Positions 27,815-33,498 of a DNA stretch of 34,098 bases are shown in pieces. Below the pieces are notes generated by a model. That model saw only the letters and a program-made list of their open reading frames with translations. It made no database searches and was not told the DNA's origin. Numbering within the stretch: position 1 is the first letter of the stretch; every line of letters begins with the position of its first letter. Source of the DNA: Deltaproteobacteria bacterium. Lineage in GTDB: Bacteria > Desulfobacterota > Binatia > DP-6. Location: the NCBI GenBank assembly GCA_005888095.1, contig VBKF01000124.1, forward strand, positions 1 to 34,098, in the 5' to 3' direction. The translations under genes were made by a program, and so were the position numbers.

Positions 27815-29179
27815 TCAGAATATCGCGACGCTCTTGATGTTGACGAACTCGCGAATGCCGTACTCCGACAGCTCCCGCCCGTAGCCCGACCGCTTGACGC
27901 CTCCGAACGGCAGCCGCGGGTCGGACCGGACCTGCCCGTTCACGAACACGCAGCCCGCCTCGATCTCGCCGGCCAGTCGCTCCGCCCGGCCGTCGTGGCG
28001 CGTCCACAGCGACGCCCCGAGGCCGTACGGGGAGTCGTTGGCGAGCGCGATCGCCTCCGCCTCGTCCCGGGCCCGGATCACGGCCGCGACCGGACCGAAG
28101 GTCTCCTCGTCGAACGCCGGCATCCCCCGGCGGACGGCGACGAGCACCGTCGGCGGATAGAACGCGCCCGGCGCCTCCGGCACCCGCCCGCCGAGCACGA
28201 CCTCGGCGCCGCGCCGCACCGACTCCTCCACCTGGCGATGCAGGTCGTCGCGCAGGTCGTGGCGTGCCTGCGGACCGACCTGCGTCTCGGGGCTGAGCGG
28301 ATCGCCCATCCGCCGCGATCGCATCTCGGCCACGAAGAGGTCGAGGAAGGGCTCGGCCACCGCGTCGACGACGATGAAGCGCTTGGCGGCGATGCAGCTC
28401 TGGCCGTTGTTGATGAGACGCGCCTCGGCGGCGGTGCGCGCGGCGGCCGCGACGTCGGCGTCCTCCAGGACGACGAACGGGTCGCTCCCGCCGAGCTCGA
28501 GCACGGTCTTCTTGAGCTCGCGCCCGGCCTGCTCCGCGACGCGGCTCCCGGCGCGGTCGCTGCCGGTCAGCGTGACGCCGCGCACGCGCGGGTCGGCGAT
28601 GATGGACCCGACCCCCTCCGGCCCGACGAGCACGGTGCGGAACACACCTTCGGGCAGGCCCGCTTCCCGGAAGACCCGCTCGATCTCGAGCGCGCAGCGC
28701 GGCACGTTCGAGGCATGCTTCAGGATCCCCGCATTGCCCGCGACGAGCGCCGGGGCGGCGAAGCGGAAGACCTGCCAGAAGGGAAAGTTCCACGGCATGA
28801 TCGCGAGCACGGGACCGAGCGGGTCGAAGCGGACGTAGCTCCGGCGTGCGTCGGTCCGGCGGGGCTGCGGGGCGAGGAACTCCTCGGCGTGCTCGGCGTA
28901 ATAGTCGCAGCCCCAGGCGCACTTCTCGACCTCCGCCTCGCCCTGCGCGATCGGCTTTCCCATCTCGAGCGCCATGGTGCGGGCGTACGCGGCCTTCTTC
29001 GCGCGCAGCACGCGCGCCGCATCCCCGATCGCCCGCGCACGCTCCTTGATCGGCCGTCGCCGCCAGTCGAGGAAGGCACGGTGCACGTCGTCGAGCAGGC
29101 GCTCGGTCTCCTTCGGAGTGGTTTCGGCGAAGGTCTCCAGCACCTCGCCGGTGGTGGGGTTGACGGACCGGATGCTCAT
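27815..29179 (-). CDS. NAD(P)-dependent aldehyde dehydrogenase, succinate-semialdehyde-dehydrogenase type
   Basis: A 454-residue ALDH starting at ATG 29179 with AGGAGG upstream. It shows SVNPTTGEVLETFAETTP at the start, GPVLAIMPWNFPFWQVFRFA (cofactor entry), GVTLTGSDRAGSRVAEQAG, the general-base Glu228 in TVLELGGSDPFVVLED, the catalytic Cys262 in NNGQSCIAAKRFIV, and EETFGPVAAVIRA near the end. The short length and the NNGQSCIAAKR motif are typical of the GabD/Sad-type succinate semialdehyde dehydrogenases found in cyanobacteria and other bacteria. It oxidises an aldehyde, probably succinate semialdehyde, to the acid. It follows the ThDP enzyme by 19 bp; the pair could convert 2-oxoglutarate to succinate. 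Confidence 0.9.
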   Translation of the reverse strand: MSIRSVNPTTGEVLETFAETTPKETERLLDDVHRAFLDWRRRPIKERARAIGDAARVLRAKKAAYARTMALEMGKPIAQGEAEVEKCAWGCDYYAEHAEEFLAPQPRRTDARRSYVRFDPLGPVLAIMPWNFPFWQVFRFAAPALVAGNAGILKHASNVPRCALEIERVFREAGLPEGVFRTVLVGPEGVGSIIADPRVRGVTLTGSDRAGSRVAEQAGRELKKTVLELGGSDPFVVLEDADVAAAARTAAEARLINNGQSCIAAKRFIVVDAVAEPFLDLFVAEMRSRRMGDPLSPETQVGPQARHDLRDDLHRQVEESVRRGAEVVLGGRVPEAPGAFYPPTVLVAVRRGMPAFDEETFGPVAAVIRARDEAEAIALANDSPYGLGASLWTRHDGRAERLAGEIEAGCVFVNGQVRSDPRLPFGGVKRSGYGRELSEYGIREFVNIKSVAIF

Positions 29180-29198
29180 GGATGCCTCCTGCGGCGCA

Positions 29199-30848
29199 TC
29201 AGACGGGGCACACGAGAGCCCCCAACTTCTCGGTGAGCCGCATGTTCTCGCCGTAGTCGACGGGACAGGCGACCACCGCCGGGACGGCCTGCCGGAAGGC
29301 ATCCTCGAGGATGGGCCCGAGCTCGGCCGCGGCGGTGACGCGATAGCCGCGGCAGCCGAAGGCCTCCGCCAGCGCCACGAAATCGGGGTTGCCGAAGTCG
29401 ACGAAGGCGGGCCGCCCGTAGCGTCTCAGCTGATTCCACTTGATGACCCCGTAGGCGCCGTCCTCGAAGACGACGGTCACGACAGGCGTCCGCGCCCGCA
29501 GCGCCGTCTCCAGCTCCTGCACGTTCATCAGGAAGCCGCCATCGCCGGACGCCGCGAGGACGCGCCTCTCGGGGTGGAGCAGCTTGGCGCCGATCGCGCC
29601 GGGGAGTGCGATGCCCATGCTCGCGAAGCCGTTCGAGATGACGCAGGTGTTCGGCGCCGCACACGGGTACAGACGCGCGATCCAGAGCTTGTGGGCGCCG
29701 ACGTCGCTCACCAGGATGTCGTCGTCGCCGAGCGCCGCGCGCAGCTCCCGTACCACGCGCTGCGGCTTTAGGGGGAAGGCGTCGCTCCCCGACTCGGCCT
29801 CGAGCTCGCTCCGGATGACGTCGCGCAGCTCGCTCGCCCGCGTCATGCCGCGGGCCTCGGCCCGCGCCGACGCGCGTGCGGCGATCCGCGGGAGCGAGGC
29901 GGCGATGGCGCCCTGCACGCCGACGGCCACCTGGTACGCGGTATCCACCTCCGCCGGCGACGGGTCGACGTGCACGATGCGCTTGTCGTGCCCGGGGTTC
30001 CAGCACGCCGGGGCGTACTCGACGAGGTCGTAGCCGACGCAGATGACGACGTCCGCGCCGTCGAGCCCGCAGGAGATGTAGTCGCGCTGCTGGAGGCCGA
30101 CGGTGCCGAGGCAGAGCGGGTGGCGGTCCGGCAGGCTTCCCTTGCCCATGAAGGTCTCCGCCACCGGGATGCCGAGCGTCTCGGCGAAGTGCCTGAGCGC
30201 CTCGTGGGCCCGCCCGCGCGCCACGCCGTTGCCGGCGAGGATGATCGGATCGCGCGCCTCCGAGACGATCCTCGCCGCGCGCTCGATCTGCTGCTCGAGC
30301 GGCTCGGTGGGAAAGGGCTGCTGCGGGAGGAGCGGCCCGAGGCCGGACGGCGCCGTCGCCTCCGCCACGTCCTCCGGCAGGTCGAGGTGCGTGGCCCCCG
30401 GCTTCTCCGTCTGGGCCACCTTGAAGGCCTTGCGGACCGCCTCGGGCACCACGGCCGGACGGACGAGCTGCGCGTTCCACTTGACCGCCGGCCGGAAGAG
30501 CGCGAGCAGGTCGAGGTACTGATGCGACTCCTTGTGGAACCGCTCGGTGCCCGCCTGCGCGGTGATCGCCACCAGCGGCGCGCGGTCCATGCTGGCGTCG
30601 GCGACGCCCGTGAGGAGGTTGGTGGCGCCCGGGCCGAGCGTCGCGAGGCAGACCCGCGCCTTGCCGCTGAGCCGCCCCTGCACGTCGGCCATGAACGCCG
30701 CACCCTGCTCGTGGCGCGTCTGGAGGAAATGGATATCGGAGTCGAGCAGCGCGTCGAGCAGCGCGAGCGTCTCCTCCCCGGGCACGCCGAAGGCCCAGTC
30801 GACGCCCTCGTTCTCGAGGCAGCGGACGAGCAGCTCCGCCGTGGTCAT
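29199..30848 (-). CDS. ThDP-dependent enzyme, acetolactate-synthase-like, candidate 2-oxoglutarate decarboxylase
   Basis: A 549-residue ThDP enzyme from ATG 30848. MTTAELLVRCLENEGVDWAF and GVPGEETLALLDAL open the PYR domain with Glu47 in RHEQGAAFMADVQGR, the residue that activates the cofactor. CLATLGPGATNLLTGVADAS and KESHQYLDLLALF follow. The central domain has IILAGNGVARGRAHEAL. The PP domain has GDGGFLMN (435-442), with E462-D-G where many family members have N-N or N-D. Acetolactate synthase large subunits share this plan, but no regulatory small subunit is next door. A succinate-semialdehyde-type dehydrogenase follows by 19 bp, as in the cyanobacterial 2-oxoglutarate decarboxylase pair, whose member was also first annotated as an acetolactate synthase. 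Substrate assignment is inference. Confidence 0.88.
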   Translation of the reverse strand: MTTAELLVRCLENEGVDWAFGVPGEETLALLDALLDSDIHFLQTRHEQGAAFMADVQGRLSGKARVCLATLGPGATNLLTGVADASMDRAPLVAITAQAGTERFHKESHQYLDLLALFRPAVKWNAQLVRPAVVPEAVRKAFKVAQTEKPGATHLDLPEDVAEATAPSGLGPLLPQQPFPTEPLEQQIERAARIVSEARDPIILAGNGVARGRAHEALRHFAETLGIPVAETFMGKGSLPDRHPLCLGTVGLQQRDYISCGLDGADVVICVGYDLVEYAPACWNPGHDKRIVHVDPSPAEVDTAYQVAVGVQGAIAASLPRIAARASARAEARGMTRASELRDVIRSELEAESGSDAFPLKPQRVVRELRAALGDDDILVSDVGAHKLWIARLYPCAAPNTCVISNGFASMGIALPGAIGAKLLHPERRVLAASGDGGFLMNVQELETALRARTPVVTVVFEDGAYGVIKWNQLRRYGRPAFVDFGNPDFVALAEAFGCRGYRVTAAAELGPILEDAFRQAVPAVVACPVDYGENMRLTEKLGALVCPV

Positions 30849-31257
30849 CCACCTTCGCCTATGGCACAGCCGGCGGGCGTATGCGATCGCGGCAGGTAGG
30901 GGCGGTGATCTCGGACTGCGCGTGCGACGTGCCGAGCTTGGACGTGGAAGGAGCGATGACAACGCGCGCGCCGCTGTCTGTCAGGGCAGGACGACGTGGC
31001 AACCGACGTCGACGGCGATCCCCGGCCGTCGGGCGCGACGTGCGACATCGGGGCCGACGAGTTCGTCCCCTGAGCCGCGATCACGGGCGGGTCGCGCCGC
31101 GACGATCGTCTCGCCGGAAAGTAGGGCGCAGGGGCGCTTCGGGGGCGCGGGCGGCCGCCTCTCTTTTTTACGTTGACGGCGCGCGCACGGGTGGCGTACA
31201 CCCAGTCGTTAGTTCGGAAAAAGAACCGTGAACGAACCGGAGATGGAGAAGACCCCA
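30849..31257. other. intergenic region between divergent genes, with possible promoter for the phosphoesterase
   Basis: 409 bp with no supported gene; frames on both strands have only Arg/Ala-rich shadow character. On the plus strand TTGACG at 31173-31178 with GTACAC at 31196-31201 (17 bp apart) is a possible but weak promoter for the gene at 31258; the -10 is poor. A T-rich run at 31162-31170 lies just before it. The promoter of the ThDP operon must lie in the left part and is not apparent. Confidence 0.35.
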
Positions 31258-33498
31258 ATGCCGAGCTCACGCCCCGCCGTCGCCGCGCTGGCCGCCCTGA
31301 CGCTCCTGTTCGCGACCGCCGGCGTCGTCCACGCCGACGGCAATCTCGGGAACGTCAATCACGTCATCATCGTGATGATGGAGAACCATTCCTTCGACAA
31401 CTACTTCGGCGTGCTCCCCTACGCGACCGGATCGCCCTACCACGGCGGACCGTGCGCCCCGAGCGACCATAGCTGCGTCGACGGGCTCACCTGCACGCGG
31501 GATATGAGCGGGAACTACAGCTGCAGCAACTCGAACCTCGACGACGACGCGTCGCTGGCGTACGCCTTCCACGATCCGCGCTACTGCACCGGGCCCGACC
31601 TCCAGCACAACTGGCAGGGGAGCCACCAGGAGGCGAACTACAGCAGCCCCGCCGGTGCGCTCCTGTTCAGCCCGAACGACGGCTTCGTCCTGGTGAACGA
31701 TGCCCAGGAGCAGATCGACTCCGGCGAGACCCTGACCGACGACGACACGATCGGCTTCTACAACGAGGACGACCTTCCCTTCTATTACGGCATCGCCCAG
31801 ACGTTCGCGATGAACGATCGCTACTTCTGCTCGGTCGTCGGGCCGACGTTCCCGAACCGTTCCTACGAGATGGCCGCGACGTCGTTCGGCCATCTCACGA
31901 CGAACGAGATCATTCCGCCGGTCCCGAACAGCTACAAGCCGATCACCGGCACGATCTTCGACCTCCTCGACGCGAACGTGGTCTCCTGGAAGAACTACTA
32001 CGGGAACCTCCCGACGTCGTTCATCTTCCGGCTCAACAACACCAACGCGGTGCCCGTCACACCGAATTTCTTCACCGACGCGGCGGCCGGAACGCTGCCG
32101 ACGATCTCGTTCGTCGATCCGATCCTCGTCGGCCCGACGGAGAACGACGAGCACCCGCCCACGGACATCCGCGCAGGCGAGTTCTTCGTCTGGCAGGTCA
32201 TCAACGCGGTGCGGAACGGCCCGAACTGGAGTGACTCCGTCATCTTCTTCACGTACGACGAGCACGGCGGCTTCTACGACCACGTCGCGCCGCCGCAAGC
32301 TCCCCAGGGCGGCGCGCTGAATCCCGACGGCATCAACCCGGGGCAGTGCGCGGATCTCTCGAACCCGCCCGCCAGCCAGCAACCCGGAGGAGGGGTCCAG
32401 TGCAGCGTCAGCCAGTCCGACGCCGCGGCGATCTGTCCGGGCTTCACCCCGACGGGGCCGTACCCGGCGGCCTGCGCCAACTTCAATCAGCTCGGCTTCC
32501 GCGTTCCGTTCGTCGCGGTGTCGCCGTTCTCGAAGCCGCAGTACGTCTCCCACACGATCGGGGATCACACCTCGATGCTCGCCTTCATCGAGAAGCGGTT
32601 CCTCGGCTCGCAGTTCCTGACCGCGCGTGACCAGAACGCGGACACGCTCGAAGACCTGTTCGACTTCGACAACTCGCCCTCGCTCACCACCACCGTGCCG
32701 ACGGCACCCGCCCCCCTCCCGAACGACCCGGGCTGCCCGTACACGACCACCACGACGACGGTGGTGGCGGTCACGACGACCACCACGACCACGACGACCA
32801 CCACGACAACCCTGGAAGACACGGGCTACGTCCCCCCAGACGCGACCACGGGGAAGTGCGAGGACCGTGTCGAGAAGGCGCTCGCGAAGTACATGGCGGC
32901 CGTCGTCAGGTGTCACGTGAAGTCGGCCGACGCGGGCGTGAAAGGCGCGCCGCTCGACGACGAGGCCTGCGAGTCGAATCCGTCGACGGGCAAGGGCGCC
33001 AAGGAGAAGTATGACGCCGCCATCGCGAAGCTCGTGGCGAAGGGGTGCGGCGGTTGCGCGACCACGAATGCGCCGGGGCTCCGGGCGGCGGCCGAGTCGT
33101 TCCTCGAGAGCAACAACGGACAGTCCTACTGCGCGGGAAGCACGCCCTTCCTGGGTGGCGACGACAGCGGTTTCGTCCCGCCCGATGCGGGCACCGGGAA
33201 GTGCGAGGACGGGGTGGCGAAAGTGCTCAGCAAGTACGTCGCGAACGTCATCAAGTGCCACATCAAGTCCGCTGATTCGGGCGTGAAGGGCGTTCCGCTC
33301 GACGACGAGCTCTGCGAATCGAATCCGTCGACTGGGAAGGGGGCCAAGGAGAAATACGACGCCGCCATCGGGAAGCTGGTGATCAGGGGCTGCGGGGGCT
33401 GCGCCATCTCGAACGCGCCGGGCCTGCGGGCGGCGGCGGAGTCGTTCCTCGACACCAACAACGGGCAAGCATACTGCGCCGGCTCGGTTCCCTTTTAG
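31258..33498 (+). CDS. exported phosphoesterase (phospholipase C/acid phosphatase type) with poly-Thr linker and two Cys-rich C-terminal domains
   Basis: 746 residues from ATG 31258, with GGAGAAG upstream; earlier in-frame starts at 31228 (GTG) and 31243 (ATG) are less well placed. Signal peptide at 1-27 (LAALTLLFATAGVVHADG). Residues 35-485 are a PF04185-type phosphoesterase: HVIIVMMENHSFDNYFGVLP with the metal-binding Glu42-Asn43, DRYFCSVVGPTFPNRSYEMA, DSVIFFTYDEHGGFYDHVAP with acidic and His ligands, and RVPFVAVSPFS plus GDHTSMLAFIEKRF near the end. It should cleave phosphate esters such as phospholipids outside the cell. A linker of mostly Thr (about 496-518) leads to two 109-residue copies of a Cys/Lys-rich domain. 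Those domains are unknown to me by name; they may attach the enzyme to the surface. Confidence 0.9.
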   Translation: MPSSRPAVAALAALTLLFATAGVVHADGNLGNVNHVIIVMMENHSFDNYFGVLPYATGSPYHGGPCAPSDHSCVDGLTCTRDMSGNYSCSNSNLDDDASLAYAFHDPRYCTGPDLQHNWQGSHQEANYSSPAGALLFSPNDGFVLVNDAQEQIDSGETLTDDDTIGFYNEDDLPFYYGIAQTFAMNDRYFCSVVGPTFPNRSYEMAATSFGHLTTNEIIPPVPNSYKPITGTIFDLLDANVVSWKNYYGNLPTSFIFRLNNTNAVPVTPNFFTDAAAGTLPTISFVDPILVGPTENDEHPPTDIRAGEFFVWQVINAVRNGPNWSDSVIFFTYDEHGGFYDHVAPPQAPQGGALNPDGINPGQCADLSNPPASQQPGGGVQCSVSQSDAAAICPGFTPTGPYPAACANFNQLGFRVPFVAVSPFSKPQYVSHTIGDHTSMLAFIEKRFLGSQFLTARDQNADTLEDLFDFDNSPSLTTTVPTAPAPLPNDPGCPYTTTTTTVVAVTTTTTTTTTTTTTLEDTGYVPPDATTGKCEDRVEKALAKYMAAVVRCHVKSADAGVKGAPLDDEACESNPSTGKGAKEKYDAAIAKLVAKGCGGCATTNAPGLRAAAESFLESNNGQSYCAGSTPFLGGDDSGFVPPDAGTGKCEDGVAKVLSKYVANVIKCHIKSADSGVKGVPLDDELCESNPSTGKGAKEKYDAAIGKLVIRGCGGCAISNAPGLRAAAESFLDTNNGQAYCAGSVPF
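32824..33495 (+). repeat. two direct 327-bp coding repeats (109-residue Cys-rich domain)
   Basis: Copy 1 is 32824-33150 and copy 2 is 33169-33495, equal in length and separated by 18 bp (LGGDDS). Both read G-Y/F-V-P-P-D-A, G-K-C-E-D, K-C/R-C-H-x-K-S-A-D, C-E-S-N-P-S-T-G-K-G-A-K, G-C-G-G-C-A, and end in Y-C-A-G-S-x-P-F. Every Cys is kept. Long stretches are identical, so duplication was recent or the copies are kept alike by conversion. Confidence 0.9.

Follow-up and report, generated by a model that had tools for sequence, protein, structure and literature searches.

The window is the whole stretch of DNA that was analysed (34,098 nucleotides, forward strand of contig VBKF01000124.1, assembly GCA_005888095.1). 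The feature under study is a single gene for a secreted phosphoesterase with a paired Cys-rich tail, with the following parts.

31258..33498, + strand: secreted phosphoesterase with paired Cys-rich tail, 746 residues, ATG start (list of open reading frames, PF04185)
31258..31335, + strand: probable Sec signal peptide, MPSSRPAVAALAALTLLFATAGVVHA (read by eye)
31354..32601, + strand: phosphoesterase domain PF04185, residues 33-448 (E 4.9e-70)
32743..32811, + strand: Thr linker T6-VVAV-T13, 23 residues (translation and ends of tail-less homologues)
32818..33150, + strand: Cys-rich unit 1, 111 residues, six Cys (translation and profile search)
33163..33495, + strand: Cys-rich unit 2, 111 residues, six Cys, ending YCAGSVPF before the stop codon

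An alternative in-frame GTG start at 31228 would give a protein of 756 residues. The divergent upstream genes encode a thiamine-diphosphate enzyme (29199-30962, - strand) and an aldehyde dehydrogenase (27815-29302, - strand), and no link was seen between either and the Cys-rich tail. Downstream, a reading frame at the contig end gave a weak match to a beta-propeller family (SBBP, E 0.042) that was below the cut-off.

The initial annotation had described a phosphoesterase fused through a poly-Thr linker to a duplicated Cys-rich unit, and this architecture was recovered in full. The catalytic part scored 236.9 bits against PF04185 (gathering cut-off 23) and covered profile positions 1-353 of 356. 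The enzyme scored 168.3 bits against TIGR03396 (phosphocholine-specific phospholipase C, equivalog cut-off 580.25) and 91 bits against TIGR03397 (acid phosphatase, subfamily cut-off 362.75); both scores lie below the cut-offs, so neither model assigns the substrate of the phosphoesterase. Six solved chains matched the enzyme, five of them phospholipases C and one an acid phosphatase, the best being the phospholipase C 8k3g (E 1.2e-38).

The two units of the tail were identical at 87 of 111 residues (78%), and their DNA at 79% of nucleotides over 300 nt, with a spacing of 345 nt. Alignment of the units confirmed that all six Cys and the motifs quoted in the initial annotation are kept in both. 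The annotated length of 109 residues did not survive as precisely as the duplication itself: the repeat period was 115 residues and the conserved core about 107. The similarity of the units is far above chance (E 3.0e-58). Between them dS was 0.78 and dN 0.15, and a dN/dS of 0.19 indicates that both look constrained; taken with the dS value, the window units are neither a fresh copy nor decaying. A chance or artefactual repeat was ruled out by the 345-nt repeat, the E value and the dN/dS ratio. The 14 Thr codons counted among the 19 of the linker were 7 ACG, 6 ACC and 1 ACA, with no single repeated codon.

The tail had also been called Lys-rich, which is correct by Lys count but not by overall charge, as the window units are slightly acidic (pI 5.4 and 5.8). 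Binding by a cationic Lys-rich tail was rejected as a candidate, the units of the window's genus having a median pI of 5.9 (n = 64). In the family coded f6, 26 units from five genomes are basic (median pI 9.2), so charge is no common property of the unit.

Relatives of the unit were sought in several sets of genomes. In the own genome (5.46 Mb, 271 contigs), unit 1 as query had 30 matches with E<=1, down to a weakest E of 0.185. An iterated profile, applied to the open reading frames of 17 own-genome stretches, found 28 unit matches in 15 proteins, of which 13 carried two units and two were cut by contig ends. A broken copy on contig C105 contains stops and is preceded by a cupredoxin-like stretch and a Thr linker. 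Counting the own genome each time, the unit was matched in 10 of 19 relatives, in at least 29 of 148 genomes of the class (up to 32 candidates scored per genome) and in at least 3 of 395 genomes sampled evenly across the phylum (up to 12 candidates per genome), all three belonging to the same class. The number of unit-bearing reading frames in rich genomes such as G488 is a lower bound. A contig scan with a seven-unit alignment, which relies on two short patterns and reaches no further than close relatives, located six loci. They lie in two MAGs whose record titles read Deltaproteobacteria bacterium (isolates DP_26 and DP_3), bearing out the recurrence of such tails in uncultured lineages of deltaproteobacterial type that the initial annotation had stated. 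Viral contigs scanned for the unit contained no relative.

No described domain accounted for the unit, and it was present in many other proteins, so that neither outcome named in the initial annotation as counting against it occurred. Nothing credible was matched in Pfam, NCBIfam or PDB sequences: for the 13 two-unit stretches the best E values were 0.037 in Pfam and 0.0074 in NCBIfam, each from a single member and from unrelated families, and a profile of 26 units returned nothing from PDB sequences at E<=10. A literature search found no publication on the tail or linker in the portions of the sources available to it. The unit family is undescribed in the libraries searched.

The origin of the tail was approached through the enzyme. 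The catalytic part alone, used as query, gave matches at E<=1e-30 in 38 of 148 class genomes, the own genome included. Homologues of 50 to 73% identity were compared, comprising 12 of the 14 best matches besides the window's own; the comparison excluded G425:C381, which starts at a contig end, as well as G433:C19. The unit was absent from all 12. Eleven of these tail-less homologues end 1-11 residues past the Cys of a DPGC-like stretch, a Cys whose counterpart in the window protein precedes the linker by three residues, and the twelfth (L169) continues into a short Pro/Thr-rich end. The likeness of the window protein to the PF04185 family of phospholipases C and acid phosphatases is that of its catalytic part, whereas its tail and linker are missing from the 12 homologues examined. 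The closest homologue, in G006, is of the same family and comes from an assembly 80% complete that gave no unit match; a paralogue in the own genome (contig C25, 47% identity) is also without a tail. Since the tail-less homologues mostly end near the start of the linker, the tail is probably a later addition to an enzyme that was already there. The simplest reading of these sequences is that it was gained in the window's lineage; alternatively, tails may have been lost repeatedly.

Across 29 genomes, 90 unit-bearing reading frames were collected, of which 56 had two units, 34 one and none three. Two units were present in 28 of the 30 genus frames closed at both ends. The remaining two, with one unit, are pieces of frame-split genes (L094 and L097); because the second piece of L094 is itself counted among the 28, intact two-unit proteins number 27. 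The intact genus genes seen therefore carry exactly two units. Among closed frames of family f6, 20 had one unit and seven had two; pairing is a habit of the genus and not of the whole family. Single-unit proteins were found mostly in f6, and many are short, secreted and about 150-190 residues long.

A tree was calculated from 127 of 133 units over 109 columns, after dropping rows with fewer than 88 columns filled; it was a quick search with SH-aLRT support only, and many forks were unresolved. In the groups listed, 26 of 53 first units formed one group (SH-aLRT 99), which also took in a single unit cut by a contig end and lay separate from the second units; 22 of the 26 came from the genus. 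This grouping indicates that many pairs, and in the genus the majority, are old and composed of two types. The two units of the window were each other's nearest (98), next to the units of L039 (92), so the window pair was apparently rebuilt out of a single type.

A profile-based check of partners had been proposed with the initial annotation, and the partners it returned were unrelated secreted proteins. Pfam was scanned for 30 of the 90 unit-bearing frames, and 14 gave a match at E<=0.001, some of these being repeats or below the curated cut-off. Clear partners included an M35 metallopeptidase (L144), a lipase with Lipase_C (L112) and Lcl_C (L039). A plastocyanin-like domain scored at the cut-off in L048 and slightly over it in L108. 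L116, L118 and L146 share a stretch resembling chondroitinase B, whose score exceeds the cut-off in L118 only. Single units accompanied calcium-binding EGF repeats (EGF_CA, L143) and RTX repeats (L141 and L148). HExxHxxG was seen by eye in L098, L099 and L105, for which there was no Pfam match (the first two at E<=0.1). In a paralogous group formed by L041, L042, L047 and L096, an N-terminal pair and Thr linker are followed by a long Cys-rich C-terminal part with FCGFC; the three members scanned (L041, L042 and L047) had no Pfam match.

Sorted by eye, the 27 intact two-unit genus proteins comprised 20 fusions and 7 stand-alone pairs. A linker was scored where a 12-residue stretch with at least 10 Thr/Pro/Ser lay within 45 residues of the pair, and was found in 19 of the 20 fusions (exception L102) and in none of the stand-alone pairs. 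Some members from f6 and f7 have Pro/Thr/Ser linkers instead (L144, L145 and L151). With 40 of 330 candidates scored, matches in the linker region fell on at least 29 contigs of the own genome, and at least 23 of those contigs carry no unit; with Thr linkers so far from any unit, the linker appears to be a general device of this secretome. Two nearly identical stretches, L052 (G000:C105) and L110 (G004:C181), lie in genomes assigned to different genera; each is a frame-disrupted gene with a cupredoxin-like part, a Thr linker and a partial unit, and the likeness reflects either shared decay or a binning mix-up.

Recurrence on many unrelated exported proteins would also be expected of an export or sorting signal of the MYXO-CTERM or type IX kind, which is afterwards cleaved off or joined to the envelope. 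The likeness to MYXO-CTERM and other C-terminal sorting tags is this recurrence on unrelated exported proteins of related lineages. The difference from MYXO-CTERM and PEP-CTERM is that the unit is not tied to the C-terminus and has no visible transmembrane segment. The pair was N-terminal in five of the nine own-genome fusions (C-terminal in four), whole stand-alone proteins exist, and the tail, which ends in YCAGSVPF, showed by eye no membrane-spanning stretch, hydrophobic helix or basic end. A sorting signal is accordingly a very unlikely explanation. The earlier description of the tail as a modular surface-attachment unit holds for the modularity, with unrelated secreted partners, placement at either end and Thr/Pro linkers; attachment is a suggestion drawn from this architecture.

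The fold of the unit was examined by structure prediction, another check proposed at the outset, and by covariation of its Cys. AlphaFold2 with 14 rows predicted an all-helical unit (pLDDT 75.9, pTM 0.68) with helices at 13-45, 52-56, 65-87 and 89-102. The tandem was modelled as a single chain with 7 rows (pLDDT 73.3, pTM 0.75). From 146 aligned rows, the 133 distinct units that filled 80 or more of the 109 columns were used to score covariation. Cys 32 and 51 were almost invariant (132 and 130 of 133 units). Columns 14 and 78 carried Cys together (101 units, phi 0.87), as did columns 28 and 61 (25 units, phi 0.93). Cys 4 and 81 were mutually exclusive (phi -0.78), and 107 and 108 likewise (phi -0.78). 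C14 and C78 were lost jointly while C32 and C51 remained. Full units, taken as those with E under 1e-6 and extended by three residues at the end, numbered 121; 101 had an even Cys count and 20 an odd one.

From this covariation we infer candidate disulfides C14-C78, C32-C51 and C81 with C107 or C108, with an extra C28-C61 in some units. In the numbering of the AlphaFold2 model the first and last of these correspond to residues 18 and 81 and residues 32 and 65. The nearly constant sums would fit an antiparallel hairpin of the predicted first long helix and third helix. The pair C36/C73 (phi 0.91) was kept off the disulfide map, as it occurs in 5-6 units only and its register misfits the C14-C78 hairpin. 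Independent pairs on supported branches were then counted. C28/C61 gave three, all changing jointly, a number that cannot reach significance; C14/C78 gave two, the second trait having followed in at most one; C36/C73 gave one; and C4/C81 gave four, the second trait being mostly unchanged, so substitution of C81 by C4 was not backed. Correcting for relatedness leaves the Cys covariation weak, and kinship may explain much of it.

The initial annotation had offered metal or heme binding as an alternative, with the Cys and the CH histidine as ligands and the tail as an electron-transfer or metal-storage arm. The conserved Cys, the CGGC pair, the retention of the CH His in 60 of 64 genus units and the plastocyanin-like copper domain of two partners are compatible with this. 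Against it, residues 521-746 contain no CxxCH by eye, which is the mark of a c-type cytochrome, 18 of 35 f6 units have Tyr or Phe in place of the CH His, C14 and C78 disappear together, and Cys counts are mostly even. Pairwise covariation and even counts favour disulfides over metal or heme, and a ligand-binding arm of this kind is most improbable.

Fold searches gave no homologue of known function, and neither did PDB sequences. Foldseek with the unit model (pLDDT 75.9) returned no match at E<=0.001 in PDB or BFVD. The best VIA match of the same model had Z 8.3 (89 aligned residues, rmsd 3.3), and the best match of the tandem was to a PhoU-like protein (Z 8.6, rmsd 5.7); both sets were put aside as generic helical bundles. 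Binding of lipids or other hydrophobic ligands is common among secreted domains that are small, all-helical and rich in disulfides. The unit could on this ground be an independent ligand-binding or enzymatic domain, for a lipid or small molecule for example, with the fusions incidental. The stand-alone one- and two-unit secreted proteins show that it does something without the enzyme and are in keeping with such a domain, but the partners are chemically very diverse, and the fold searches speak neither for nor against it; we consider the idea rather improbable.

A separate motif, SPSGAF[LIV]D, was observed before the stop codon of unrelated, apparently secreted proteins outside the window. Sites include G000:C25:2467-2490 (L053 and L174), G000:C102 (L192 and L208), G000:C106:63166-63189 (L206) and G000:C113 (L207). 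Of 69 matches read, one runs off its contig. Among the 68 distinct pattern matches with the stop in view, 64 lie 0-7 residues from it and the other four 40 to 424 residues away. The DNA pattern was present in 19 of 148 class genomes, 17 of these in families f1 and f6, and the reversed control gave none. In the phylum it was present in 11 of 395 genomes, against 6 control matches; two f1 genomes had 5 and 6 matches and nine others one each, of which eight code other residues and one (G326) codes SPSGAFVD. Both Ser codon families are used in the motif, which suggests selection on the peptide. A literature search for SPSGAF found no publication, and on its sequence the motif looks like an undescribed C-terminal tag. 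It recurs on short single-unit f6 proteins (L126, L135-L138, L142, L147, L149 and L150), which are without C14 and C78, occur several per genome and close with SPSGAF[VIL]D and a handful of further residues; in G488 two of these are nearly identical neighbours (L147). These are possibly abundant matrix or surface proteins.

A probable signal peptide, putative disulfides, a linker and unrelated extracellular partners together point to a module that fixes secreted proteins outside the cell. The tail is best read as a non-catalytic extracellular targeting or tethering module, to which we assign a probability of roughly 0.55; binding is argued from architecture. The protein would be exported by its signal peptide and the enzyme would fold as in the tail-less homologues, with the Thr linker spacing it from the pair. 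Each unit would be a small, mostly helical, disulfide-stapled domain, working in pairs in the genus. The pair would bind an extracellular target, either the cell's own envelope or matrix or the surface of the substrate, and the phosphoesterase would stay local rather than diffusing off.

The target might also be another pair, with stand-alone two-unit proteins forming a scaffold that collects the pair-bearing enzymes. Stand-alone pairs (4 of 13 intact) and fusions (9 of 13) do occur in one genome, and units 1 and 2 are distinct types in many proteins, at least 26 of 53 first units being grouped. The tandem model is single-chain, however, and the stand-alone pairs may have an unrelated role, so that homotypic assembly is unlikely. 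The likeness here is to cohesin and dockerin, but those are two partner families, whereas here there is one kind. Quite doubtful too is the wider proposal that the pairs form an interlocking extracellular enzyme-display system, of stand-alone scaffold and docked enzymes, with an origin unlike that of cellulosomes. If it were true, phosphoesterases, lipases, proteases and other secreted proteins would dock on the scaffold through the same kind of two-unit tail, and an undescribed fold would give the surface or matrix of the lineage a modular organisation.

For the preferred targeting or tethering module the nearest known systems are dockerins and carbohydrate-binding modules. Dockerins resemble the tail in being twofold-repeated modules joined by linkers to different secreted hydrolases. 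Their repeats are calcium loops of about 22 residues and are not known to have the Cys pattern of the unit. The units here, by contrast, are about 107 residues long, appear to be of disulfide type and may be N-terminal or alone; the dockerin profile gave no match at E<=1 in scans of the whole protein and tail, and the repeat spacing is 345 nt. Carbohydrate-binding modules are likewise non-catalytic and movable, occur at either end and use Thr/Pro/Ser-rich linkers, but the unit is predicted to be all-helical rather than the usual beta-sandwich and is paired in the genus. The CBM profiles of Pfam gave no match at E<=1 for the window protein and 13 two-unit stretches. By analogy, the best reading is of a module that would work like a CBM or dockerin, although the profiles tested place it in neither group.

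Movable modules carried on linkers are, as a kind of device, already well known. The unit represents an undescribed family of movable extracellular domains that has a habit of pairing and occurs under seven family codes, all within one class; it provides annotators with a model for some 90 unnamed reading frames. As a compact module, apparently disulfide-stapled, it is one whose ligand can be sought directly. The finding suggests a way in which secreted enzymes are organised in uncultured bacteria of soil type.
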